This document shows positions 24,887 to 63,617 of a stretch of DNA of 64,000 bases, piece by piece. Each line of letters begins with the position of its first letter. Position 1 is the first letter of the stretch. The position numbers and the translations under genes are program-made. Below the pieces are notes generated by a model. It made no database searches and was not told the origin of the DNA. It was given only the letters and a program-made list of their open reading frames with translations. The stretch lies in NCBI RefSeq assembly GCF_020921035.1, contig NC_063156.1, positions 3,348,001 to 3,412,000 of the forward strand, in the 5' to 3' direction. The stretch is from Rhodamnia argentea (taxonomy: Eukaryota > Streptophyta > Magnoliopsida > Myrtales > Myrtaceae).

Positions 24887-25046
24887 CCTCAATCCTATGA
24901 ATTTGGTACTTCGAAACTTCAAGCGTATGATTCTTTCTTCTTGTGGGGATTCATTCACAAAGCCAAGATCTTCAAACGAACCAAACGAGTATGTGGAAAT
25001 CAAATCCTCCTCTTCTTAAGTTTGGCCCCATCGTTATCCTAGAAGT

Positions 25047-27344
25047 ATGCTATGTAAAACGAAATTGTGGAGTGCCACATCGTCCACGTCCATCTCCCAT
25101 CTGAACCCACTTCACAAATTCTTTCACCAAACCAAGCGATTGATCAAATCCACGAGTACCCAACAATCAAAAGCCCATTTGGCGGAACACTCATCTTCGC
25201 AGCACTTCTCGGATCAAATTTACAGCTACCTGTTCTCTCGACTCAAGTCACCCTTCGATCTCCTTGAAGCCAAGAGACTGCACGCCGTTTTGATTGTCGG
25301 TGGGGTCTTTGAGCCAGGGACTAATGATGGGTTGTTTGGTTCACAGCTCGTCAACGTTTATGTCAGATTTGGCCGTCTCGATGATGCACTTGATGTGTTC
25401 GAAGAAATGCCCAGGAAGAGTAATGTTGCTTACAATGCCATTCTTAGGGGATTGGTCAGCGCGGAGCGGTTCTCCGAAGCCATTGATTTCTTCCGATGGA
25501 TGCTTAGGGAAGATATTATCCCTGACAATTTCACTTATCCAATTGTTCTCAAGGCTTGTTCCGGGTCAAATGACCTCGAGGTGGGAGAAAAAGTGTGCGA
25601 CTTAATCAAGTTTAATGAGACTAAATTTAATGCAAAACGGAATGCTTACGTTGAATGTGCCATGATCGACATGTTTGCTAAATGCGGTAGCTTAGCAGAG
25701 GCACGCAATGTATTTGAGGAGATGCCGAGGAAGGATTTAGCTTCTTGGAGTGCAATGATAGGCGGGGCCGTCCACAACGGGGATTCGCTTGAAGCATTGA
25801 GTCTGTTTAAAAGAATGGGGCAGGAAGGGTTGAAACCCGATTCTGTGACTGTGGCAAGCATTTTGCCTGCGTGCGGCAAATTGGAAGATGCACATATGGG
25901 AATGGCATTGCAAGGATTTGCAGTGAGGTGTGGTTTTGAGAGTGATATATACGTTTCAAATGCTCTCATAGATATGTACGGTAAATGCATGCTCCTTAAC
26001 AAGGCAAGTGAAGTGTTTTGCAATATCGTGAATAAGGATGCAGTGTCTTGGAGTGCCATTATTGCGGGTTACTCGCAGAATGGCGAGTATTGCCGGAGTG
26101 TGGAGCTTTATCTAGATATGAGCAATGCGGGCATAAAAACTAATGTCATTGTTGCATCGAGAGTTTTGCCTGGACTTGGAAAGCTGAAGTTGCTGAAACA
26201 TGGAAAAGAGATGCACGGTTATTCACTTAAACAAGGGTTTGAATCTGATGGTGTTATAGGGAGCGCACTAATTGATATGTATATGAACTGTGGAACAAAA
26301 AGAGCAGCAGAGAATATTTTATACACGTCGCCTTTTCGTGAAATTGTGATGTTCAACTCAATGATTGCCGGTTATTCAATATCGGGCGATTCTGATTCAG
26401 CCCTTGGCGTATTCCGGAATATCTGGAAGTTCGATCTCACACCAAATGCTGTAACAATTCTAAGCATTCTTCCTGTATGTACTGAAACTGGGAATGTTAC
26501 CCATGGAAAAGAAATCCATGGCTACACAATTAGGACAAGAATTGGAGAAGTGGTATCTGTTGAAAACTCTTTGATAGAAATGTATTGCAAGCGTGGACAT
26601 TTAGAAGTCGGAATCAAGGTTTTCAATGGCATGATGGAAAAGAATATCGTGACATATAACACGATCATCTGCGCTCATGCAACCCATGGTCTGGGAGAGC
26701 AGGCACTCTCATTTTTCGAAGAAATGAAGGAGTTGAGAATGAGACCCAACAAAGTTACCTTCATTGGACTCCTTTCGGCTTGTAGCCATGCAGGTTTGGT
26801 TGAGAAAGGATGGCGTCTCTATGATGCAATGAGAAGCGAATACAAGATTATGCCAGAAAGGGAACACTATTCATGCATGGTGGACCTTCTGGGAAGAGCG
26901 GGACAGCTCGACCGTGCGTTCATCTTCATCAAGGAAATGCCTGTGGAACCGGATATTAGTGTCTGGGGAAGTTTACTGAGTGCTTGCAGACCTCATAACA
27001 ACGTTGTGCTAGCTAGTTTTGTGGGAAGGAAAATCATAGATGAGAACCTGATAGATCCAGGACACCACATGCTTCTGTACCAGATTTACGCATCCTGCCA
27101 GAGATGGCAGGATGCTTCACTTGTCAGGTCGGTGATAAAAGAGAAGGGCTTGTCGAAGACCCCTGGAAGGAGTTGGATCCAGATCGGGTTTGGAATTCAC
27201 ACATTCCATGCAAGAGGTCAGATACATCCCGAGTCGGACAACATCTACCGAGTTTTGGATCTCTTGCTATTGGAGATGAAGGAGAAAGGGGACGTACTGG
27301 ATCAAGGTTCTTCATCCGAGGATCTAATAGAGAAAAGTGGCTAG
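25047..27344 (+). CDS. Pentatricopeptide repeat protein, PLS class with E/E+ domain, probably mitochondrial
   Basis: Sequence-specific organelle RNA-binding protein; PLS-class members mostly specify C-to-U editing sites. It is a single 765-aa frame without introns, as usual for the family. Residues 1 to about 45 are rich in Ser, Thr, Lys and Arg with no acidic residue, fitting a mitochondrial presequence. From about residue 95 onward, P, L and S motifs alternate, with repeated signatures such as NALIDMYGKC, EMPRKDLASWSAMI and GLKPDSVTVASILPAC. The C-terminus has E and E+ motifs (WGSLLSAC, then KGLSKTPGRSWIQ, then HPESDNIYRVLDLL) and stops without a DYW deaminase domain. It would therefore need a DYW partner if it acts in editing. 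The start is the first ATG of the frame. Which named PPR protein it corresponds to is not clear. Confidence 0.95.
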   Translation: MLCKTKLWSATSSTSISHLNPLHKFFHQTKRLIKSTSTQQSKAHLAEHSSSQHFSDQIYSYLFSRLKSPFDLLEAKRLHAVLIVGGVFEPGTNDGLFGSQLVNVYVRFGRLDDALDVFEEMPRKSNVAYNAILRGLVSAERFSEAIDFFRWMLREDIIPDNFTYPIVLKACSGSNDLEVGEKVCDLIKFNETKFNAKRNAYVECAMIDMFAKCGSLAEARNVFEEMPRKDLASWSAMIGGAVHNGDSLEALSLFKRMGQEGLKPDSVTVASILPACGKLEDAHMGMALQGFAVRCGFESDIYVSNALIDMYGKCMLLNKASEVFCNIVNKDAVSWSAIIAGYSQNGEYCRSVELYLDMSNAGIKTNVIVASRVLPGLGKLKLLKHGKEMHGYSLKQGFESDGVIGSALIDMYMNCGTKRAAENILYTSPFREIVMFNSMIAGYSISGDSDSALGVFRNIWKFDLTPNAVTILSILPVCTETGNVTHGKEIHGYTIRTRIGEVVSVENSLIEMYCKRGHLEVGIKVFNGMMEKNIVTYNTIICAHATHGLGEQALSFFEEMKELRMRPNKVTFIGLLSACSHAGLVEKGWRLYDAMRSEYKIMPEREHYSCMVDLLGRAGQLDRAFIFIKEMPVEPDISVWGSLLSACRPHNNVVLASFVGRKIIDENLIDPGHHMLLYQIYASCQRWQDASLVRSVIKEKGLSKTPGRSWIQIGFGIHTFHARGQIHPESDNIYRVLDLLLLEMKEKGDVLDQGSSSEDLIEKSG

Positions 27345-31200: not shown

Positions 31201-33417
31201 ACTTCTGCAAACTATTCTACTGAGGCAACATGTCTAATCCCAGACATAACAAGAGGATTTCAAATTGCCATGCGCATAAGGGAACAGATATTATTCTTAA
31301 CCCAACTTAAATTATTATTTTAGTGATAAATCCAAGAACGCAGCTCTTCTAAACTACTAATGACTCCCAACACCCACATGTAAACAATACATCTGCATGA
31401 CAAAACTATATTTCAGTAGTTATCAAATTTAGCCTTAATTACAGAGACACATTTGCCTTAAACATCAATTCCTTTAATAAGATATGTACAGCAAGTGCAC
31501 CCCCCAATCCCATGATGCTTGTAATCCATGGGTAAATAAAATTAAAGCACTAGTTATTATACCAATATCCACCTATCATCAATTCTGTGACGGAATTTGC
31601 AATCAACTACTGGAACAATGGGTTCCATGATGGATATACCTTCTTCCTCAGAGCTCTCTGACTCTTTCTCTTCAGATGATGATTCAGATGAGCTATGATC
31701 TACGTCTTTCTCCTTCGAAAGGACTGCATTTCTCAGAGGAGAATCTGGAAGCTCCTTTGCAACTTCCTGGATGTTTAATAAGGAAGTCCATTGACAGACA
31801 AAACCGAATTCAAGTACATATAGTATAAAATTCCTTATCAATGATTCAATATCATCAGTAAAAAGAAGAAACACGATAAACAACGGGGGATACAAAAGCT
31901 TCAGATTGCACCCTAGATCCATCTTGAAGCTTCCTTGAATGAAAACTCTTGAAGCCGAAGATATCTTCCTTGTCAAAAATTCCTTTTCCTCGCACAAAAT
32001 TACCAGCTTCCTGCTCCACCTGGTCTTCTTGAGTCAATGGACTTGGCGAGGAGCCCGCCATCCGAGTTCTTTGAAGTGTTGGACTTGGGGAATCATCTTG
32101 TTGATCAACATAAACTTTTGGGAATGTGTTACCAGTACATTCTCTCTGGTCCTTATTATTGGCTAAAGCTGGGCTGTTAATAGCTTCATGCTGACATGGT
32201 TTGCTTACTGCTGGTTGCTTCGGGAGATCTTTTTCTCGACAAATCTTTTTTGGTTTGATGTCGACAGGCAAAGTGACGTTAAGCAAGCTTCGTCTTCTGT
32301 AACCATGTGGAGATGATCTTTCCTCTGATGGTGAATTTTTATTTCTGTCAGTTGAGCGCTGATTCTCATCCTGATTGTTCTTTGACGAAAATGAAAGCTT
32401 CCGTGGATCAGTTCTGGCATATTTTCTCCCAGTTTTCTGGTTGCTGATAACTTTTGAAGAACTTCCTTTGGCAGTGCCTCGTATTCCAATGTGCCCCTCT
32501 TCAAACCTAAAGCTATTTCTTTCCTTGGATTTCTGTTTGTAAGACGAGAGAAGGCCACTTTCTAATTTCTTCAGACGTGACTTACTTGAGGCTTTTTTTC
32601 GGGTCAAAGCTCGAGTCACTGGCCTTCTATTTGAACAATCTGGGCTTTCAGAATCGTTCTCTATCGTATCTGAATTTTGTTTAGGCTTAGCAACTGTATC
32701 AACTGTTCGATTCAAGTTCTGCTCTGACTGAAGCGAGGTGACACCAACCTCAACAGGCTGCCAGCTGGACTTCTCTTTGTTAGGTGAGGAAACAGTTTCC
32801 AGCAACTCCCGGAGCTTGATCCTCAAAGATTCACTTTGATTCTTCACTTTACTTCCAGTCCTGTCCCCCAGAGTTGTTCCATTTGATGTAAGCGCTACCC
32901 TTACAGTCGAAGATGCACACTTATGCACAGTCTCTGCAATTTCATTCCTCTCTTCATTCATCTTGTGGTCATCGAACCTTTTCTGGCTGACATGATCAGA
33001 CTGTAAAACTGAGGCCTGTTTGGGAAAAAGTTGAACTGAGTGATCCACTGGTGCACCTTTCAATCCATTGGCTTTGCTGTGCATCTCATTTTTGTCTGTT
33101 TTAGTTCCAGTAAGCTTTGCACGCAATACACTTTCTGAGCCTGCTGAGTTTTTGTAATTAGATCTCTTGGTAATCCATGGGGATCCTTCATGCTCCTGAC
33201 ATTCATTTTGCCTTGCTCTGTCAATAGCTGCTACACCTCCTCCAGGTAAATCTTGTTTGTTAGCGTCTACACCAAACTCAGTTGGCACTGAACCCTCATC
33301 GTCCCTCACTGGTCCAGGTATCCTCCTTGCTGATGAGTCCACCATAATTCCTATGGAAATTTTCCTTGATTGGCTGCTTGTAAAGAAGTTACTTCCATAA
33401 CTGCGATTGCCACTCAT
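28206..33417 (-). CDS. ASY3: Meiosis-specific chromosome axis protein ASY3
   Basis: Axis protein that works with the HORMA protein ASY1 in homologous synapsis and crossover formation. Coding exons are 31894-33417, 31640-31766, about 30641-30787, 30470-30533, 30211-30360, 30072-30130, 29196-29330, 28609-28700 and 28206-28277. Phases close throughout and give about 789 aa; from memory Arabidopsis ASY3 is 793 aa. The N-terminus MSGNRSYGSN...SSQSRKISIG is the conserved N-terminal segment that in plants includes the ASY1-binding closure motif. NSDTIENDSESP followed by RRPVTRAL is a second conserved block. The C-terminal exons encode a long coiled coil (about residue 620 to the end), the oligomerisation region, ending LAREQMLQLKLVMEKCLEGG. 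The start was chosen by homology: the ATG lies six bases after a good acceptor that ends a 5' UTR intron. The donor after exon 30641-30787 is ambiguous (GT after 30641 or GC after 30647; two-residue difference). Confidence 0.93.
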
Positions 33418-34228
33418 CTGATTCTGCACCCAAGATGAAAACTCTGGTCGAATCAATTCTCAAATGTGTTGTTGCAAGATTTCAGCCCATACATAACAAA
33501 TTTTCCTTTGGAGCATTAATTACAAAATCCTTATAAAGACGCATGAGCGAAGTAAACCAGAAAGGCCTGATATAATGCACAAAGCTTGAATTAAATTGAA
33601 AAGTCTAAATTAACAGAGCGAACAAAAAACATGTTCAAGCTTGCGACAATCAAATTAAAGAATCCAACAGTCAATTTCAAAGAGGATTCTGCAAAAGGAC
33701 CACTGATAGCAGCAGATGAGACTCGACAAATTGTACAGATAACATTGAGCCGAAACCGGGCTAAGTCTCCAATGGAAACCAAATTAGATGCTTAAATACA
33801 CTAATCCTCATTCCTCCTCATGGATAATGCCACCATCTATTTGTTTTTCAGATTGACTCTTTTCGGACGAATCCAGACACCTAATCAGCTGACGATGCAA
33901 ATTGCCGACGTCAGAATTCCACAACCGTGTTTAAGAAGTCTCCTGAACTTCGCCGTTTCTCAAATCATCACAACAGCAAAAAATGCACCTACGAAATTCA
34001 GACAAGCACAGAAGAGACGTTCCTTGACCATCCGATTCTCCAACTTCCGCAGTTCCGATACTGACGAAAACAAACGAAGCACGAAGCTCACTCGCAAACT
34101 GATCCGCCTCACTGTGAACTGAAGGAATCAGAGACATCGACTGATTACCTGATTCGAGCGAAGGACGAACTCGGATACAGACAAACAGAAGCCGAATCGC
34201 TCGAGGAAGTGCAATCGCCAAGATATAC

Positions 34229-38500: not shown

Positions 38501-40818
38501 AGGGAGGAGCTGAAAGTAAAAACTGTCGAGTTTCAAGTCTCTTTTCAGCTTCAATTGATAGTGTTATATTGATCCTGCCCGGTATCCTTGCAATTTTGTC
38601 ACCGGACCATCTGCTGGCCTGCCCTGAATCTTCCACGTAGGTGGGGCAAACCACAAGTATTGTGCTGATTCATGTGATGTATAGAGATTATGAATGAAAT
38701 ATCAAGTATGATGCTAATTAGACAGATTGTTGGTATTCTTTGTGGGCATGTTTTTTGGGGCAAACTGAAAAGTCGGATTCAGTACTACGAACAAATACGA
38801 AATTGCTGCTCCATTTATTTGTTTTTTTATGTTCTATTGTAGGATTTCTATTTTGGGCTTTTGTTGCTACATTTAGTCAATTAAAGAAGCCTGCGAGATC
38901 TTTTACTATCTTGTGCCACATATTACGTAGGATTCACTCAATTAATTCATCAACCCTCAGGATACATGAAAATGAATGGTTCCATTGTGCATATAGGCGT
39001 GGTAGTTTTACCTGATTATAGCCACATAATCAGAGGGCCCACCATAAAGTTAGATGAATTGACGATGCATCTCCAGGCCTTAATTTTCAGAGTCATTGTT
39101 AGTAATTTCTGTTCTCTTGTTTCAGGCTGCTGCTGCAGATGCATTATCAAACTTTTATTACCCACCAGTTGCTGCAGTAACCATTTCATATCCAAAGGAA
39201 GCTATCAGGTCAGAGTGTTTGATAGATGGTGAACTCAAGGGGTTTGGTCAGTTACATCCTCGTAGCCAGGGGGTGGAAACTCTAGGTGTGGTTTTAATTC
39301 TTATAACAGTGAGCTTTTTTTGAGAGAGAATATATTCATGCAGTAAAATCAATTGTTATTGTTTCTTGTCAGAATTTAACAATATTTCCTGCCAGCTTAG
39401 CTGCTTGGGTTGCCCTGCAGGAACTTTATACAGCTCATCACTTTTCCCAAACAGAGCACCAGAAGGAAGGGTTTTGCTGCTGAACTATATTGGAGGGGCC
39501 ATTAATCCCGGAATTGTATCCAAGGTAAGAGGTTTGTGTAGTCGAATTGTCAATTTGGTTTAGGTCCTGTAGGAGTAGTTAATGACTTAGTGAGTCATAT
39601 GGTCATATAAGCATTGATTGATTTCAGCTATGATGGTGGACTTCCATTTTGTAATCCTGCCAACTTTTAGTGTGATGAAATGTCTTCATCAACATACACA
39701 TCTCTGAATATTATCAAGAATATTTCTGGGATTGCTGGAACTTTCTCATGTCAAAGGCACATTAACATGTCGTTATTCTCCTGAACAGCACATGAAGAAA
39801 GAATCAATAATGGTTTCTCTTTTCATCACCATACACCCCCTTCTTGATAGCTCAGGAAAGATAAAAGAACCACTTAGCCAGCATGTATGGGTAGCATGGA
39901 TTAGTTGCCAATGCTTGTGTAGGTTAAATTATCTAGTCAATTGGTGATATTTTGTGCAATCTGATGTGGTGTTGAGGGAGGTTATGTCAGGATAATGCAG
40001 AAAAGTGTTACTGCATGAATACAACATGTGGGATTGGGTATGCTGATACAGAAGAGACTCTCCTTTTGTGGAGCTGCTATGAGCACTTTTTCTCTCATAT
40101 TAGCTGTTGTGAAGTATTAAGAAGTCAATCATCTGGTATCAAGAGGGTGTAGATTACATTTTTGTCCTTTCCAAATGGTGCTAATTTTTAGCTATTTGCA
40201 AATCAGTTATAACAGTTCCCTGGCTTCTTTGGGAAGCGGAATATATTTCATGACTAGTCATATTGCAGCTTCACTCCATATCTGTCCTTTTTGAGTGTAC
40301 CAAAAAGCTTGAAGTGATCTGGAATTCTGTCTTGCAATAAGAAAATCTCGTAGTTAAACAGGTTCAAGTCTCATGCCAAATATGAAAGTTCGAGCCTCAT
40401 GCCAAATCAAAATTGTTCCACAAGCTTAGTTAATTCTAGCAGATAGCTTTTAAATGACGTCGTGTATTTTCTCTGATGCCTCGTACCTCATACTCTTACA
40501 ATGGCACATATATTGCAGACCCCGGGTGAACTTGTGGAAGCAGTTGATAGGGACTTGAGGAAGATGCTTCTAAATCCCGGTGCAAAGGATCCCCTTGTCT
40601 TGGGTGTAAGAGTGTGGCCACAAGCTATTCCACAATTTTTGGTAGGTCATCTGGACCACCTAGATTCTGCCAAGGCTGCTTTAAAGGACATTGGCTTCCA
40701 AGGTTTTTTTCTAGGTGGCAACTATGTATCTGGTGTGGCCTTAGGCCGATGTGTTGAAGGTGCTTATGAAGTTGCTGCGGAAGTATCAAAATTCTTGTCG
40801 CTATATGCTTACAAATAG
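35502..40818 (+). CDS. PPO1: Protoporphyrinogen oxidase, chloroplast (PPO1)
   Basis: FAD enzyme that oxidises protoporphyrinogen IX to protoporphyrin IX, the last step shared by haem and chlorophyll synthesis; it is the target of diphenyl-ether herbicides. Exons are 35502-35879, 36455-36640, 36784-36868, 37534-37681, 37769-37849, 37984-38155, 39126-39285, 39421-39524 and 40519-40818. All junctions are GT/AG with closed phase, giving 537 aa, the same length I recall for Arabidopsis PPO1. Residues 1 to about 38 form a Ser/Thr/Arg-rich transit peptide. The dinucleotide-binding motif VVVGGGISG is at about 60-68, followed by [10 protein letters not shown]. Conserved blocks include [31 protein letters not shown] and the C-terminal [20 protein letters not shown] second ATG follows the first immediately, so the start could be 35505. 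Exon 1 is much more GC-rich than the rest. No break is seen. Confidence 0.96.
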
Positions 40819-45277: not shown

Positions 45278-46316
45278 ATGGGCAAAGGAAGCAGCTCATC
45301 GTCGGCTTCTTCATCCACAGCTTCGTCTCTGTCCCGCCGTCTCAAGAAACGCCTCACCACCGATCTCAACCTCGCACTCGGATTCTCGCCAGATTCTCAC
45401 CAAGATCACAACCACCCTTTTTCTCCAAAGTACTCATCTCATCGATCCATTTGCTTATCTGTTTAATTTTTTGCCATTTTCCTTCGAGATTTTACCGATT
45501 TGTGTCTATCTCTCTCACGTTCTTATTGCTCTTGTGTTGGTGGTGCAAGGGAGGCTATCGAAGAAGGAGATGAATGCGACAATGTGGCTACCTTCTATGT
45601 GAAGGTTTACATGGAGGGCATTCCCATCGGTCGGAAACTGGACCTGTTGGCTCATGATGGGTACTGTGACTTGATCAGAACTCTCGACTGCATGTTCGAC
45701 ACCAACATCATGTGTAAGTACCGAGTATCACAAAGTGTTCTTTGTTGTTCTGTTCTGTTCTTTCCTTTCTTTTGTTTTTGTTTTTGTGGGTTATCTTGTT
45801 TTGGCTTTCGCCAAGAACATGTTTAAGTTAGTAAAGATCGATGGGGGGCTTCTGAAGTGGTTTGGCTAGAGCAGGGTCAGAAGAGGAAGGAGCTCAATGT
45901 GGAGGGTGCCATGTGTTGTTGTATGAAGACAAGGAAGGGGACTGGTTGATGGTTGGGGATGTTCCTTGGGAGTAAGTTTCGACTTCATTCTTCTTCCCTC
46001 TCTTTTTAGTCATCTCCATTTTCATGATGTTTCGACCTCGAATTCGGTCGCAAGGATATCCGATCTCGTCCGTTCGTTAAATAAGGCGTCGAGAAGTAAG
46101 TAACAGATGAATCTCGCCAGAACATGCCTGTGGAGCATGCTAATGAAGAACTGTAGAACATGCGAAAAATCACTTTAAAAATGGTCCTTTTCCGACACTA
46201 ATCTTGTGTGTTTGTGGAACTGTTTCGTGATCCTTGTTTTCTTTTGGGTCGATTTGATCCGATGCAGGATGTTCCTGTCAAGTGTGAAGAGACTGAAGAT
46301 CACAAGGATAGAGTGA
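45278..46316 (+). CDS. Non-canonical Aux/IAA protein of the IAA20/IAA30/IAA31 type
   Basis: Nuclear repressor that binds ARF factors and modulates auxin-responsive transcription. Exons are 45278-45429, 45550-45713, 45875-45971 and 46268-46316. Phases close exactly and give 153 aa. After a Ser-rich start, LNLAL at residues 30-34 is a short domain I-like LxLxL motif. The PB1 (domains III and IV) region follows: [19 protein letters not shown] with the invariant Lys, then [19 protein letters not shown] with the acidic cluster, ending [10 protein letters not shown]. The GWPPV degron of domain II is absent, as in the IAA20/30/31 group, so TIR1/AFB-dependent auxin-induced breakdown should be weak or missing. 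The start is the only ATG in frame at the head of exon 1, directly after a GAG repeat. The exact orthologue within the trio is not resolved. Confidence 0.92.
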
Positions 46317-47853: not shown

Positions 47854-50800
47854 CTATGTTTCAAGGTAAGTCCACCAAGATAGCAACCGAGCACCTTTGT
47901 TTCGTATTCTATGTCCCTGCGAAAAACTTGATAGATGGTAACACTCAGTGCAATGATCTGGGAATATACTTTCTTCAAGAAGCTCGCAAGTCTGAGGGCA
48001 AACTAAACTGGAGTAACCTTGAACATTCGAACAGTTCCACGGAGACATCGAGTTTACGCCGAGTGTGATGTTGTATAGGCAGATATTAATGAAACTATCG
48101 CCCTCAATACCCTCCATAAGCCCTGCAACTGTTATGTTCTCCCCGCGGATGTCTTTAAAAGTGATCCTTTCTACTTTGGGCAGCGCATTGGGGTCATAAG
48201 ATTCATCTGGGTGCTCCCCATAGAGACCGGTGAATCTTATGGCTGTATTCACATTAGCCAATGTAACATTAGATATGAAGATGTTCCTCACATAACCACC
48301 TCTTCCTGGAGATGTTTTTATTCTAATGCCATCGGTGGAGTTGAAGAACACGATGTCCTCTGCATGGACGTCTGATACTCCTCCGGACATCTCACTTCCA
48401 ATCGCGATACCTGAGCTACGAGTCTCACCGATGAGCCGGCGAATGATGATGTTTTTACTAGGACGACCATATGATATGCCGTACTCATCCCAACCGCTTT
48501 TGATAGCAATCACATCATCACCCGTGCTTATGTAACAGTCTTCTATGCATACATCATCGCTGGAGTCTAGATGAATTAAAAAGTGAAAAAATTCAGCGCT
48601 CTGTTTGACATCATGCAGTGGAATAGACAGTTCGTGAAATATCAACATGATATCTAGTCTATAATGAAAAAGCATTATAATAAGGGAGTTTGACGGGAGG
48701 AATTATGAAATTAGAATTTTAGTTCATCCACACATTGTGTTGGAATTGGAAGGAGATATTCTCACTTTTCCATTGGAATGAGCAGGGAGGGGGGATCTGT
48801 TCATAATAGGTCAGTATAGGGGAATTTCAGATTGTTACATGAGCATCTGATCGACTAATAGAAACTAAAAAAGGGTTACAGATGCTAATGTTCCAAAAAG
48901 CATCACGGGTTTGTAACAAGCATAATGGAAACTTGACTCGGATGAGCAAATTCAATAAGCTCGATGGATATAAATCTTCTGGAAATATATTAAAAAAAAA
49001 GTAATAAATAACAGCCTAGCAGAAAGACCTTACCAGGATCGATTCCATCTGTGTTCGGTGAATCAAGAGGAGCACGTATGGTGACATTCTGAACGATAAC
49101 TTGGCTGTGAATCGAGAAAAACAATCTCAACTCCCCCTAGTTCATAAAAACTTCAACTTTGCACAGTTTATACAGGCAGATTAAAAAAATCAAGAAATTC
49201 AAGCCTCCAGATCAGACAAACCTGCAATATACAGGATGGATGGTCCAGAATGGCGAATTTAAGAAGGTGAGGTTCGAGATCACGACCCCAGTGGAGTTCA
49301 TCAACTCAACTAGATGTGGCCGAGTATAGTCAAGGGTTTTGTTTCTGAACCGTTCCCACCACATGCTGCCTTGACCATCAATAGTTCCATTTTCGCCTGC
49401 ACAAGGGAAATATGCAATATGAAGAGGAAGCACAAGGAATGCAATTCTTCATTCGTATCACTCACCTGTAATAACCACATCGGTTAAATTGCGTCCAAAA
49501 ATGAGACTCCGATGACGTCCACCAGGCAACTCCCTACCTCGGCCATATGATGGTAAGGGATCAACAATGGGCCAATCCTCCGCGTTCTGAAGCAAAGATT
49601 TTGAGACTCTTCACTAAACTGTGCATCATCTTTTTGCTTCAATGCTACCACATTGTGCAACTCCAGTAAGACGTTAGTTACTGATACCCAGGTGATTTAC
49701 AGACGTTACATTGGCCAAAAATGAAAATTATGTGTACCCTTCTCTTCCTTTATGCTTTAGGCCAAAATTCTTCAATATTCCGTTTAGAAAGGGCTAACTT
49801 GGAGCATCAAATGGTAAGACATAGTGAAAAATGAGGACGTCCTTTTTTTTTGCTAGAGAATTAAAAGAACACAGAACAAGCAAAATAAATGTAGAGACCA
49901 GTACACTAGTTTCGAAAGACTGGTCAAGTCCCTCGATATTGCAAAATTAAATCAATTTTGTCGACCTCAGTTAACGATTAATCAATACCATGGATCCAAG
50001 AATTACTGCACCCTTGTCCAGCCACAGGGTGAGATGGCTGATGAGGTCGAAGCTTCCTGTCAACCACTTTCCAGCAGGGACAAAAAGCTTGGCCCCTCCT
50101 TTGTCCGCAAATGAATTAAGATAGAAGATGGCATTCTGAAATGCCTTTGTGTTGAGAGTGACGCCATCTCCGACGGCTCCAAATTCAGTGATTGTGACGC
50201 TGTGAGGTCTAACCCTTTCTTCATTATGCCGTTTGCAATGTGAACTTCCCACAGCAACCCATTGAGTAGGAACGAGCAATGCAAGTAGCACAAGTACATC
50301 CACCAACTGAAATCATGGAACCTCTACAATTTCAGTAAACAAACAATTTCGCGTGACACTACTTCAAGAAGCTCCGAATGGAGCATTCTCATATATGTCT
50401 CGACAGCTGTATCATCATCAGCTAGTTCAGACACAACCTAAATGGGTAGAGGGAATAAAATGAAAACTCCAAAGGTGACGAAGCATCAAGCAGGTAAATC
50501 AAAGCACATATTCCAGCTATTAAAGCTCCACCTATATGAAAGTTTAAGATGAATCCCACTGATTTAAAACTTCCCCATATGGTTAATAGAACAAAAAAGC
50601 TGGTCAGGATAGCAACAATTTGTCAAAAAGATATTCAACCCAAAGTGAAAAAAAAGCCAAGTCCATTAAAGGTGTGACAAAAACAAAAGAATTCAACCGC
50701 TTTGCTTGAACAATTGAGCAAATAACAGTAGGATTTCACCAAAACACTTCTAGCTTCGCTCATCAGATCCCAACAAGCAGTCTTTTCCAGCTAATGAAGC

Positions 50801-55969: not shown

Positions 55970-57870
55970 TTTATCTCTTCTTTTTCCGCTGAAAAATCAA
56001 AATTCTGTAGAAGAAAAAAAAAATCATCAATTGGTGGAAAAAAAAGAAAGGGAAGAGAATCACATGCTGTATTACCTTCCAAGTTCCAACCAAAGATTAA
56101 TTGACAGAAGAGGCCAAATCATTCTTTGGGGAACCACCTGTGACTCCAGAACCCTAAAATAATTGCTCCAATCAGCAGCTACTGTTGTGTTTTCTATTCT
56201 TCTCTTTGCTGCTGTAACTTCAGATGCTAGGGTTTTGCCATTTGGCCACATTGCATTCTCCATTTTAAAAAACTCAGGATCTTGGCCGACTGTTGTTTGA
56301 TGTTTGAATTATAAATTGTAATGGCTCCAAGATAAGCTGCTTTAATTTGTTCTCATGCTAATTATTATCGAATCAATTCGATAGTGGGCTCACAGCATGT
56401 ACCAACTCCTTGGACCTTCCCAGATCTACCTACTCGTATTTATGCCTATGGAATCTGTTTATTAGAAGGTGGAAGGATGATCACGGGTGGGATTAGTGCC
56501 GCGGAAGGGATTAAAGAATGGATATTAATGCGATGTAGGAAAACGCTATTTCATAATTGTATAATGTGACATTCTGACATGACATCATAGATTCAATCAA
56601 GTTTTTGTTTTGTTTTTTTTTTAAGAATGAATTGAGGAATAAGTCATCTGGCTTCGTGGATTATGAGATAGATCATCGTGTTATGTGACGTAATGCAAAA
56701 GAGTTTCTTGCGTTGTTTTCTCACACGGACACGTACTTGGAATAACCACGTGAATTCCACAAGATTTCGACAAAGAGATGAAGGTTAATGAAATGACAGA
56801 AACTAGTGCTTAATCTTTGCCAATGTTCGAGCTTGATGCTTCATCTGCTACACAATATGGTTCAACTCTTTCTTCCGCTACTTCGTAACCTTTCACATGA
56901 GTTCCAAAATTCGATGAAATTGAAAACTTCTCATCTTTGTTTATGCAATTTAATAATGTGCATTTTGGGTGAAAAAGACAATAAGGAAGTCGAAATACGT
57001 AAATTGTTAGCATTTCAATATGTTTACGTTCGACCAAAAAAAAATATATATATGTTTATGAAATACTACCCAAACAGTCCCCGTAGAAAATATCTTAATA
57101 ACTCCAACTATAAACCTTCCGTTGCAACATAAAATTATGTGAAAATTTCACAAACCATCTCCACCATGAGGAGTGATAATGCAGATCGATATGAGATCAA
57201 AACTTCAGGATGATCTTTTGAATTTCTCGTCAACTTTCATTTATTTCTTACTATACACATCTTGCTTGATCATGTAATCGATTACTATAAGTCTCAATGC
57301 CCATACATAAAAGGAGGAGTATGGAGTAGCTACGCAGACGTTCAGGGCTCCTCTTCTAGTCAGGTCAAAGCTCAGCTCGGAGGCTCGACTTATGATCGCT
57401 CGAGAAGCCGCTTCTCGGAGCAACACGTCGTAACTTCACACACATTTCCAATTATTCGATACAAGATCTCACAACATACAAGTACTTATAAACCAACAAG
57501 TAAGACTATGGCGAATACGCGTTGCAGATAACAAAAAAGTCAGAATTAGGACAGAATGTTCATTAGCAAACACGACAAGAAGAAACGAAAACATAACCGC
57601 ACCTCTCTCATTGCTTGAAACTAGAGTAAATTATGTTTAAGATGTCAGAGTATCCACTCTCCAAAGACATTATCGACATGGAAAAATGAGTACCCGAGCA
57701 GCCTGTGGCTAGAGAAAAACTGATGTTTCACTTCTGGTTAACAAATGATCATTCCTATAAGGCTATCAAGTAAACCCGGCAATGAAGAAGAAAGACTTGA
57801 ATTACTTCCTTGCAGAAACAAACAATTCTGAGGCACGTTTGAGATACTGAAACTAGCTGATCAACAAGGC
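55970..57870. other. Gene-free spacer
   Basis: Short open frames only (for example 56806-57132 and 57262-57531), AT-rich and without family resemblance. No RNA gene or clear repeat was found. The last part would be the 3' UTR side of the decayed ProRS locus. Confidence 0.4.
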
Positions 57871-60800
57871 CTAGTAACTTCTGCCCCAGTAGGACCATTT
57901 TTTGGCTGGCTTTCCCGACACAAAGCATTTAGTACCTGCATGCATAGTTAGATGCGGATATCATATGAATGACATTGCCATCTTATAACATGGTTGGTAC
58001 GCAAATGAAATTTGGTGATGAAGGACCGAGTTAGACACACTCAACAATATGGATTGTAATATTACAACACCATGGAGTTTTGCAAGTTCAATTGTAGAGG
58101 TGCGTATGAAACAAGCAATTCATAATATAAATACCTTCGGATCTGTTAAATATGTCTTGAATTTTATGTACCCGAACCGGTTTATCACCCGACCCGAAAT
58201 ATTTTTGTGCGGCCCAAAAAAGTGGAGGAAAAATTGAGATTTAGTTCGCCACGCGGAGAATTGGCCCAACATATTCTGCCCCAGGCAATGCGAAGTTGCT
58301 CCTTGTATACCACGACCAGTGTCGGGAATGAACACCTGCCACATGATACCAAAAGGAAGTAATGGAGAGAATAATATTTGTATCAAAGCAAACAGCCACT
58401 TTGTTCAATAGAAAAGAAGAAAACAGAACAGGCACAAACTTTTTGCCATTTGGTTCTCAGGGTACCTCAACAGTCGTCGTGTAAGAACCACATCAAACTT
58501 TTCCAGCTCGCTTTTCTTTCCCTTTATGACCGGGACAGCTAAATATTCTTCATATATACGTCTGTAGAGTTCCAACATATCAAGAACCTGAAGAAAATTA
58601 TGGACTACTTGTAAGTATTTCGATATGACATCAATTGCTCAGGGTCGCGCTTCTAACTGAAACTTAGTCAGGCACTGTTAGCAAATAATAAGTCACAAAT
58701 AGAGGGGTCTAAGTCAAAGTTGACAGTGTTCACAATTACTTGTGAAATCTACTCAAGTTTTCAAGGGCCTTCTCATATGTTATTGGTTGTAATTTCACTT
58801 CAAATATATCATACACTTTACTAATAAAGAATTGCTCTTTTCCACAGAAATCTATCATAGTGTAGCACCGCAAAACCCCGAAATCAAACAGAGAAAATCA
58901 AATATTATCTTCTACACAAATTTTTACGCCAAAATCATATTATGAATCCAACAAATATAGAGAGGCAAACCTCTGCATCTGCCTCTTCTTTTGTTGCAAA
59001 AGCAGTATGACCTTCCTGCCAAAGAAACTCGCGACTCCTGCAGATAAAAGATTTATAGTTCACTCAAGAATCATCTTTCCAGTAGTGGACGAACTGTTAT
59101 ATAATGACTTATGCAATCAACTATGCTTGGGGCCAAAAGTAACTCCTGAAGGGGGAGAATTTTCATAGAAAGACTGTCAAACTATTTGGTGAAATAAACA
59201 TTCCAGCTGACAAAACCAGCAGGATGTGAGAATCCCCAGTACTGTACCGTGTAGCATATACATTCACAAATTGGATTGTTGCAGAGCTTAAGTGATGAAA
59301 ACTATAAAGCATCTCACTCTTTGACCTAACATCCACAAACATATGATAAAAACAACAAAACAGCCACATTATCCAGATAGAAACCTGATAAATGGAGTAG
59401 GATGGCTGAACTCCCATCAGACAACATTGCACCATTGATTGAGTTTCAAAGGTAAATCTCTGTGTCCTCTTATCCATTTTGAATAGTATGGGTGCATGAC
59501 AGTCTCACTAGTTGGCCGGATCGCAATAGGCACTTCCAAATCAGATTCCCCTGATTTAGTTACCCAAGCAACCTGAAAGAGTCATTTTTATTCAGAAAAA
59601 TATCGTGAATATTCCAGAAAAGTAACCCACAAGCTATCAATTTATGCCTACATTTTTTCAAGCATATGACAAGAGAGAAGCACATGTTACCTCCGGAGCA
59701 AAAACCTCTATGTGGTCCTTCTCCCTTTGTCAAACACCAGGAGAGACAAAAAGAGGGAAATAGCAGTTTTTAATTTTCATTTTCTTGATCTCTGCATCAA
59801 AAAATCCCTGCAAATAGAGCATTGCTATCAAATTATTTTCTTCGCCAAGTGAAGATAGCTTTGTGCCAATGGGATCAAGGTTAATGCATGGGAATATTTA
59901 GAGGAAAGAGAAAATAAATTATGACATAGATACTCAAAAATCAATATCACATAATTTAAGAAGAAAATATAGGTGAGAACAAAAGAAGGCGCTAATGTGA
60001 AACACACTCTTAAACTAAACCTGGAGATATAGCCAGAGAAATTGTGACTAATGAAAGAGAAGGACAGAGGAAAAAGAGTATGAATTAGCGAATTCAATAA
60101 AGAAAAAAAAACCTTTTTGACTCAGTTACAAGGAAACATGCTCAATACTCACTTGCATGATCTCCCAAATAGCCATTGCCCAAGGCCTCAAGATATAACA
60201 GCCAGATATATCATAGTATTCAATCATCTCGCCACTCACAACAACCTGCATTGTGTGAAGGAGCATAACCGATTAAAATGTCCAACCAAATATATCACTC
60301 CACATACTGCTGAGTGGCCCCAACCTGGTAAAATCAGATTTAATGTTTCTGAGGTCCCTACCAATATGCATGCAAGTTGTCAAAAAAATTTCATTTTCTG
60401 ATATACCAAGAATTATGAATAGCAGATCACACTCCACTTCACACTCTGCAAACGCAATAATATCACAAGAACCCTTTTTTCCCTTAAACGGCACATGAAG
60501 AAGATCACAAATTTTGCATGAGTTCAATCTTTCTATCAAGATTCTTTAAGTAGATTATTTCCTTCGATTTGCAACCGACTACTCCATAGAAATGCTGGAT
60601 ATTTACAAAGTGATCGACACCACGTAGCCCCAAAGAAGGCAGTCAAAACATACCTCCAAATACCACTCTCCAAAGTTCTCATCCTTCTTGTTGGAGAGAC
60701 CTAAACCAGTCTCCTTCTTCACCTCCTTCTTTTTCCCCCCTGTATATCACTAACACAGATCAGACACATCTTCACACCGAGCATTATCTCACAATATAAT

Positions 60801-60886
60801 AGCACAAAACACCACTGCAATAACGTATGAGATCACTGACCGGCACCTGCATTTGCATTGGACTTCTTCGTTTCACCACCAGCCAT
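57871..60886 (-). pseudogene. Cytosolic prolyl-tRNA synthetase pseudogene
   Basis: The intact parent charges tRNA-Pro in the cytosol. Exon remnants on the minus strand are 60841-60886, 60654-60739, 60153-60245, 59691-59807, 59385-59572, 58971-59037, 58466-58587, about 58273-58335 and 57871-57935. They read MAGGETKKS at the start, then blocks such as [42 protein letters not shown] and GIQGATSHCLGQN, and finish CFVSGKPAKKWSYWGRSY. Lesions: TGA at 59730-59732 where Leu is expected after SPGV; TGA at 59417-59419 where Arg is expected in NVV-R-WEF; a 1-base loss in exon 58466-58587 (122 rather than 123 bp, within the expected EKFAGG region); and no exons between GQN and the last 21 codons, removing class II motif 3 and the anticodon-binding domain. 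Introns are kept, so it is a duplicated copy and not a processed one. The lesions are described, not repaired. Confidence 0.88.
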
Positions 60887-61074
60887 ACTCTGACCTGATC
60901 ATTAGCCAATTCCCACAGAAAATGCAAAAGGGTTACCAAATTTACGCTAAAAATTGCTTCTTCACGACCAGAATCGACCGTCTCATGCATATATATCACA
61001 ATTCTACTGAACTGTGCAAGGGAATTGAAGGTGCAAGAAAATTGAATCGACCCATTAATACATGGAAAAATTAT

Positions 61075-61081
<7 letters not shown>

Positions 61082-61119
<38 letters not shown>
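61082..61119. repeat. GA microsatellite upstream of the ProRS remnant
   Basis: A pure GA run of about 19 units, roughly 200 bases upstream of the first ProRS exon remnant. It would lie in its promoter or leader. Confidence 0.9.
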
Positions 61120-61121
<2 letters not shown>

Positions 61122-61499
61122 GGTTCTTACTGGATAGTGTCTTGACAGGCCCGTCAATCGTTTCACAATCGAAGTGAAGGTGGTAAGATCACAGCCAAGC
61201 GAAGAAGTTGGCAGTTAAAAATAGGAGCTTGCTAAAACCCTAAATCAGAGGCTTCAAGTTCGTGAATCGTCAAAGATTTGGACAGGGCAGGGTTGACCAG
61301 CCAATCCCAACCAAAATGAAAATTAAAACTGGCCTATCTTTTCCTCTCTTTTTTTTGGTTATCTTTTCCTTCTTCGGTTTCTTAAAAAGTCTGCAAATTT
61401 CTTCTTCATTCTTCAATATTCCAAAATAAGCGTTTGGTGGTACCATAAGAAATTTACTTTAAGAGTTTTTCTTCTAGGTTACCACCAAGCCTACTGTTT

Positions 61500-62635
61500 G
61501 TTCATGGGCATGAAAGAAGATTCTTGACCTCCGCTCGGATTTTCACTTACAATTTCGATGGCGGATTGGGGATGGGTGCTCCACCTCGTTCTGGTTTGAT
61601 CATTGGCACGACAGGGGTCCGCTGTACAAGTTCTTTTCCAATGCAGATATATATCAATCGGGCATCCCAAGGAAGGCCTCGGTTATGGACTTTGTGTCTT
61701 CGATGTAGCAACCTTCTTATGCGTTAACCACCTTCACTTCCCGGCCCGAGGATGCTCCAGTACTCACCACGGGACGAGTCGATCGATTCTCATGGGTGAA
61801 TCATCACTCGGGCTCTTTCTCTATATCCTCGGCGTGGGAGGCCATCGGACACAAAGGGAATGTTGCCCCATGGTCTTCGTTCATATGGGATAGATGCATT
61901 ATTCCGAGGCATGGTTTCCTCCTTTGGCTAGCCACCCTTAATCGACTACCGACCCGGGTATTTTTGTTAAATTACCGTAGAATTACGGAAGTTGTTTGCG
62001 GCTTTTGTCAATGTAGACCCGACTCGATCGATCATTTATTTTTCGCATGTAAAGCTACGGCCACCCTTGTCTTGGCCTGGGTTGAGAGATGCAATCTGAT
62101 ATGGCGTAACGCGAATTGGCAGGCCAATCTTGAATGGGTCATTCACAATACTAGGGGACAGCTTTTTCATCAACGGGTTGCTCGGTTATCCTTTGCGGCT
62201 ACATGTTATATTATCCGGACAGAACGCAATCATATTCTATTCGGAGATCACACTTTCTATGGGCCCGCACTTTTGAAACATCTTGAGAGGGTCGTCCGAG
62301 ACAAAGCCCTCACTTTTGATCATGTTGAGGATACCCCTCGTAATAGGCGGATGCAAATTAGTTGGGGGATCTCGTCGTCTATCTTTCACTAGGGAGTTCT
62401 TGCCCTTATTTGTGGCGTTTCTTCCCTGCGGGGTTGTATTTTAGCCGTTTATTACTATAGGCTGTGTATATGTGCTTCGGCCTTTCGCTTTGCTTTTGTT
62501 TAGCTGTAACACCTTTGCACCCACTATGAAACTTCCAAGTGTTGTAACGGGTACGAGGTTTTTGTGTTCGGCTACCCCTTTGTAAGTAGCGTTGTGAAAA
62601 GTTAATATATTTTTTACCTTACCAAAAAAAAAAAA
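61500..62635 (+). mobile_element. 5'-truncated LINE (non-LTR retrotransposon) 3' end
   Basis: An open frame, usable from about 61796 to its stop at 62390-62392, encodes the C-terminal part of a plant L1-type ORF2. FIWDRCIIPRHGFLLWLA followed by RLPTR and CGFCQCRPDSIDHLFFAC is the zinc-binding domain found after plant reverse transcriptases (zf-RVT). The reverse transcriptase and endonuclease are missing. A 3' UTR of about 230 bases and 12 A residues at 62624-62635 complete the structure. The left boundary is approximate, and I could not find a clean target duplication. Stop codons upstream of 61796 in the same frame show decay. Confidence 0.75.
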
Positions 62636-63617
62636 GGAAATTTTTCTTGAGAACATTAATTTACAAAACTATTTTTGTCCTTAAAATAGGTTATTATTAT
62701 CATTTTGCAAACACGTCCTCGAAAAATAAAAGATGAGAACATAATTCTTTTCGATACGTTATTAAATATATAACGAAATCGAATGAACGGCGACTAGTTA
62801 GCGCGGGGGCGTGACCAAGTACAAAAGAGAAGTATCCTTCGACTTCTCTCGTGTCAAATGCTTCATTTCCATTACCAGATGTTTTTCTAGGACCACGGGA
62901 CCTTCCATATCCAGTGCCGTTCATTAGCATCTCCGAATTCTTCGTTCACTGTAAAAGCCAGTGGTAGCCTGACTTTCGCTGAATGGGTGTACCATCTGAT
63001 GTTACCATGCCAAATGAGGGTGGTTGTCTTCCGGTGTTGTCGCCGTACAAAGAGGCACATCTGCCTTCTTACATTATGATTCATAGCTCCAACAAATGCT
63101 TACCAACAGACAAGCATAATTTGCATATGCCTTACCAATCTCTAGACCTTATAAATGGATGGGTCGAGTTGGATCGGCAACCTCATAGCCGTTAAAACTT
63201 TTCAATCTCCTACATGACATCATAAAACCTGAAAAGCATTGTAGTGCAACATTAGTTAAAGGACCAAATGAACAAATTTTTATTGCCCATGGGCTTCATA
63301 GAACTGTCATCTGTGAATTCGAATGGATAGACAACTTCAGCTACACATTCACCAACCAAAAAAAAAAATCAAATGTTTAGGGCAAAAATTTGTAAGGTCG
63401 GAAATGGTACTGCCAATCGATATACCCAACACTATCCCCCAGTGTTCTCGTATCCCCTGAAACTTTGCCAGGGAAAACCGAAAGTAAACAAGAAGAAACA
63501 GAAGTGGCCGAAAAACAATTAGGAACAGAAGATGGTCTCCTTTTGGCAATATGACGGTGCGAATCCAAGCATTTGAATTTGGAAATAACTTAGCCACAAA
63601 AAATCCACAGGACTGCA
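62636..63617. other. Spacer and 3' UTR side of the right-edge gene
   Basis: No separate gene is supported. The region nearest 63618 would be the 3' UTR of the minus-strand gene that leaves the window. Open frames at 63349-63660 overlap that exon in a different frame. Confidence 0.4.

Follow-up and report, generated by a model that had tools for sequence, protein, structure and literature searches.

A broken prolyl-tRNA synthetase copy in Rhodamnia argentea is very probably the dying member of an ancient gene pair

Does the locus at 57871-60886 on the minus strand of the window analyzed here, a stretch of 64,000 nucleotides (C7:3348001-3412000), still encode a prolyl-tRNA synthetase (ProRS), and if not, on which gene does the genome rely? 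Nine exons of a eukaryotic ProRS were placed in this interval by hand, with frames and borders checked. The start codon lies in exon 1 (60847-60886), which is followed on the same minus strand by exon 2 (60654-60739), framed by GT-AG borders, and by exons 3 (60153-60245), 4 (59691-59807), 5 (59385-59572) and 6 (58971-59037), which, like exon 1, were delimited by frame and border checks. Exons 7 (58466-58587) and 8 (58273-58335) were compared with a complete copy on contig C8, and the last exon, comprising 21 codons and the stop (57871-57935), was recognized through its match to Pfam ProRS-C_1. Seven introns, all of GT-AG type, interrupt the stretch from exon 1 to exon 8. The initial annotation had described the gene ends and most splice sites as still readable, and the start codon, these seven introns and the final 21 codons bear this out.

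Two in-frame TGA codons reported in the same annotation were confirmed: the first (59730-59732, minus strand) falls in exon 4, where the complete C8 copy has a sense codon, and the second (59417-59419, minus strand) falls in exon 5 at a position that is Arg in all 80 prokaryotic relatives kept for comparison. The proposal that the second stop arose by decay of a methylated CGA is not established, as the aligned codon of the C8 copy is a different Arg codon and another single change is equally possible. Exon 7 measures 122 nt against 123 nt in the C8 copy, which breaks the frame and agrees with the 1-base deletion previously assigned to it. Exon 8 is kept only as far as its GQN segment (63 of 153 nt); the window holds no match to the other 90 nt or to the next three exons of the C8 copy, and nothing recognizable as ProRS lies between the GQN segment and the final 21 codons, so the exon loss described earlier stands. 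Sequence comparison did not find the missing exons in the window or in the fetched flanks, and their transfer to another place within these regions was rejected on that ground. The window sequence contains zero N, and it yielded neither tRNA nor Rfam matches at gathering scores.

The family identity of the remains is clear from a read-through translation of 259 residues, in which X was set at the stops and at the frameshifted stretch. Against solved ProRS chains this translation matched 26 distinct sequences at E <= 0.001 (best E 1e-112), and against NCBIfam TIGR00408, a type that we take to be the cytosolic ProRS partly from the naming of At3g62120, it scored 1.9e-89 over model positions 3-230 of 475. 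The portion ending at GQN reached 300.7 bits and so missed the full-length TIGR00408 cut-off of 437; no anticodon-domain match was obtained in the window remains up to GQN by Pfam and NCBIfam profile searches. The last 21 residues matched Pfam ProRS-C_1 at 1.5e-7, with 31.9 bits against a cut-off of 31.5. In a prokaryotic conservation set of 80 relatives, kept out of at least 589 confirmed, the window differs at 14 of the 81 columns that are at least 90% conserved; four of these differences are the inserted X, and several of the remaining 10 agree with the human residue.

No ProRS is recognizable in the 337 bp that separate exon 8 from the final one, and the junction here appears to involve a transposon. 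Bases 6-129 of this filler (58267-58144) match a dispersed repeat with at least 47 genome matches, itself counted, a lower bound given that the best 40 of 227 candidates were scored; the other matches are 88-94% identical to it. Beside the broken exon 8 we therefore place a 124-bp piece of a foldback transposon arm (58144-58267, minus strand), identified from these genome repeat matches, and next to it a stretch in which comparison searches recognized no match and which is perhaps a remnant of the last intron (57936-58143, minus strand). Among five repeat copies with long flanks, four are about 1.68-1.72 kb long and palindromic over nearly the whole element, while the fifth is longer, with arms of about 0.9 kb around a spacer. 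Target duplications of 9 bp, a mark of Mutator-like elements, were read by eye at the ends of three of the five copies and not in the other two. In the single copy inspected for open frames, the longest one runs for 79 codons, which makes the repeat look non-autonomous. The window holds a single match of 124 bp to this repeat, seen against both arms, and it differs on average by 8.1% from 17 arm rows that differ by 6.1% among themselves, three of these rows being the same places fetched twice. The idea that the filler is a remnant of exon 8 or of other parts of the C8 copy was rejected, since shuffled sequence scored as high as the real one at least 33 times out of 200 in each of 12 comparisons, and a small scan at the filler for inverted repeats and target duplications found none. 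Palindromes are known to be unstable, and the simplest account would be that the gene carried a foldback element, probably within an intron, and that a deletion took everything from exon 8 into one arm of this element. Two further features lie close by. A direct repeat (57868-57889 and 58263-58284; 77% over 22 nt, 11 nt exact) links the exon 8 end with the gene end and looks like chance, and a zf-RVT (reverse-transcriptase zinc-binding) piece at 61709-62389 on the plus strand, presumably from a LINE-type element, lies about 0.8 kb upstream of the ProRS start.

Other ProRS genes were sought across the genome (346.7 Mb in 74 contigs) with the window read-through and Pfam ProRS-C_1 as queries, the best candidates being scored. 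The read-through gave at least 17 matches in three places, namely the window locus, C8:25333423-25337172 and C10. Alignment established that an intact ProRS does exist, at C8:25333423-25339026: this copy is complete, with 11 exons encoding 511 aa and ten introns that are all GT-AG, and it matches TIGR00408 in full (568 bits against the cut-off of 437) with three Pfam domains present. The ProRS at C10:11465071-11469252 is more distant, and with pieces only 36-66% identical it was rejected as the intact cytosolic copy; we take it to be of the organellar type. The ProRS-C_1 search picked out C10 and the window and missed C8, presumably because introns split the domain there. Intron positions match between the window and C8 copies apart from one early intron: intron 1 (60740-60846, 107 nt) is found in the window copy and not in the C8 copy, a gain or a loss since the duplication. 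Introns are thus kept, the reading frame is disabled and an intact paralogue is present in the genome, the marks of a duplicated pseudogene. Judged by its sequence, the window copy is a duplicated, non-processed pseudogene, and the lesions together with the complete copy elsewhere support the initial annotation's view of a disabled, intron-containing ProRS.

How old are the duplication and the death of this copy? The window and C8 copies share 255 aligned codons, in which 645 of 765 nt and, at the protein level, 232 of 255 residues are identical. By the Nei-Gojobori method dS over these codons is 1.23 (bootstrap 0.85-2.0), dN is 0.042 (0.025-0.061) and dN/dS, which covers the whole shared history, is 0.034 (0.017-0.058); at E 1e-8 the DNA match between the copies scarcely extends outside the exons. 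The high dS, the low ratio and a DNA match nearly confined to exons together imply an old pair that stayed under constraint during almost its entire existence, its age being rough since dS is near saturation. When the 21 missense differences, the two stops set apart, were polarized by the human residue alone, 5 fell on the window side, 6 fell on the C8 side and 10 stayed unplaced; the placed changes thus show no excess on the window side. At one of the five window-side positions most prokaryotes (58 of 80) share the window residue, and one unplaced difference, in exon 4, has Val in the window and Gly in both the C8 copy and 79 of 80 prokaryotes. A neutral decay model that used the C8 codons, a chosen transition weight and an assumed indel-to-substitution ratio of 0.1, and that left the large deletion out, gave 0.0135 substitutions per site (0.004-0.0285), which amounts to a few per cent of the distance covered since the copies separated. 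From missense changes only, the best t was the lowest value tried, 0.0005, ranging up to 0.02, and from the stops and the indel only it was 0.0275 (0.007-0.0705); the former is younger and the latter older, with overlapping intervals. The two stops and the indel exceed what the missense counts alone predict, a point against the reading favored below; the ratio of 0.034 and the lack of a placed-missense excess, examined for signs of neutral drift, fit a recent death. The duplication looks ancient and the death of the window copy looks recent.

Which of the two copies occupies the ancestral position was addressed by comparing gene order in this genome with published Arabidopsis gene numbers, which follow chromosome order. 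Pfam matches in the window identify one exon of an ASY3-like gene (31858-33459, minus strand) and one of an Aux/IAA gene (45467-45823, plus strand), as well as a glycosyl hydrolase 28 (polygalacturonase) gene (47857-50312, minus strand) with its GH28 domain at 47857-48702 and a pectate-lyase-like N-terminal piece at 49974-50312. To the right of the window lie a SEC23/24-type gene, an aminotransferase class V gene, which from its sequence we take to be a probable cysteine desulfhydrase, and an ABC transporter. In Arabidopsis, ASY3 is At2g46980, IAA20 is At2g46990 and IAA30 is At3g62100; At3g62110 is an entry in a pectin lyase table and appears 12 times in extracts of a polygalacturonase-family paper; and the cytosolic ProRS is At3g62120, listed as full-length in a table excerpted from PMC7564348. 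L-cysteine desulfhydrase is At3g62130 and ABCB21 is At3g62150. The C7 order of ASY3, Aux/IAA, polygalacturonase, ProRS, probable cysteine desulfhydrase and ABC transporter agrees with the Arabidopsis numbering around At3g62120. Here we assume that the two Arabidopsis blocks, At2g46980-At2g46990 and the At3g62100-At3g62150 neighbours, are duplicates, and that the window Aux/IAA and C7 ABC genes belong to the subtypes named in the Arabidopsis block. An exon of a flavin amine oxidoreductase gene (40477-40815, Pfam), presumably resembling protoporphyrinogen oxidase, and the SEC23/24-type gene stand between partners, and the conserved order is to that extent interrupted. Elsewhere in the window, a long PPR protein frame with an E motif (25020-27341, Pfam) is open over 774 codons.

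The surroundings of the C8 copy look different. Over 90 kb they hold an amidohydrolase piece (17.6 bits, under the cut-off of 25) and kinase, phosphoesterase, HPAT, ABC transporter and DUF702 frames; ten frames were tried against Pfam, three of them without a family. When 94 kb of C7 were compared with these 90 kb of C8 using frames of at least 40 residues, the matches were ProRS, repeats and one ABC pairing, in which two C7 ABC-transporter frames met the C8 ABC gene at 36% and with a different Pfam make-up. The window polygalacturonase had no match on C8 among the 11 matches listed. Since the C7 order, and not that around the C8 copy, agrees with the numbering around At3g62120, it is the broken copy that apparently holds the gene's old chromosomal address.

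We consider it very probable, from the comparison of the two copies, that the window copy is the dying member of an ancient cytosolic-type ProRS pair. For almost the whole period after they arose, both copies would have functioned under strong purifying selection; the one at the conserved address would then have become dispensable. A deletion ending inside the foldback transposon would have removed its middle exons, and two stops and a small deletion would have been added, in whichever order; now the window copy would make no functional synthetase, and cytosolic proline charging would rest on the C8 copy. The strongest competing explanation, that part of the damage is assembly error, or that it marks a single null haplotype, in a species that keeps a working gene here, draws on the single assembly examined and on remains as constrained as a living gene, at a ratio of 0.034. 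We regard it as unlikely, however, given that the lesions differ in kind, that one breakpoint runs into the 124-bp transposon piece, and that the missing exons were not seen in the window or fetched flanks of a sequence whose window contains no N.

Might the remains be kept for a short protein, or for a regulatory RNA acting on the complete copy's mRNA, as the initial annotation had suggested for the N-terminal region? The start codon, the seven GT-AG introns and a frame that runs for 98 codons before its first stop if no exon is skipped are in keeping with such a role, and excerpts of PMC7564348 propose fragmented aminoacyl-tRNA synthetase (aaRS) genes of Arabidopsis as candidates for other roles. 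However, only 6 of 128 exon-skipping combinations reach the native end, all six without exons 4, 5 and 7 and the longest giving 137 aa, and we infer that none of these products could be a synthetase. Before the first stop dN is 0.028 (5.5 changes) and after it 0.049 (19 changes), with dS at 1.83 and 1.07, respectively; as the changes are few and dS is also uneven, there is no clear extra constraint before the first stop. Action on the complete copy's mRNA likewise found no support: the remains lie in sense orientation, their longest exact runs with C8 exon sequence are two of 23 nt, and among the 14 inverted pairs at 56500-63000 no arm exceeds 28 nt (75% complementary), with 16 nt for the best exact pair. 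We thus consider this role highly improbable. The idea of a recent copy, dispersed or reverse-transcribed, that was never functional has, beyond the existence of a complete copy elsewhere, nothing in its favor and a negligible probability, a retrocopy or young duplicate being rejected by the kept introns and the dS of 1.23, which with the ratio of 0.034 needs long function, and by the place of the window copy in conserved gene order.

The dying member of an old pair seems to represent ordinary gene loss observed at an early stage, which is an event of a known type. An essential pair kept very long and then lost on one side would mean that duplicates can be lost late as well as soon after they arise. 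With a dead copy at the conserved address, position alone would name the wrong gene as the working enzyme, and one or two false ProRS models, which the initial annotation had foreseen, are to be avoided at the window locus.

In maize, duplicate genes were lost by short deletions, a process known as fractionation (PMC2893956, in part). As far as that excerpt describes it, the likeness lies in the loss of one member of an old pair while the other stays and in deletions inside exons; unlike in maize, no shared gene order was found here that would place the two copies on sister segments of a genome duplication, and the junction lies in a transposon arm, with no flanking direct repeat reconstructed. 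Fragments of aaRS genes are known in Arabidopsis and rice from the portion of PMC7564348 used here, in which At5g10880 is likewise a catalytically null ProRS remnant beside a full-length cytosolic enzyme; in At5g10880 it is the C-terminal region, anticodon-binding domain included, that survives, whereas what remains of the window copy is its N-terminal half and its final 21 codons. By the same table At3g62120 is of the same family, with the same neighbours by gene number, but it is listed as full-length in Arabidopsis and its counterpart is dead in the window, a likeness drawn from listing and gene number rather than from sequence. A reciprocal loss, in which Arabidopsis kept the IAA30-polygalacturonase-ProRS-LCD address (At3g62120) and reduced the other copy to At5g10880 while this species recently did the opposite, is conceivable but doubtful. 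LRP1 is At5g12330 and ABCG6 is At5g13580, numbers in the At5g12-At5g13 range and not far from At5g10880 in the Arabidopsis numbering. It is genes of this range, LRP1 and ABCG6 for example, that the C8 neighbours (DUF702, ABC transporter, kinase and amidohydrolase piece) presumably recall.
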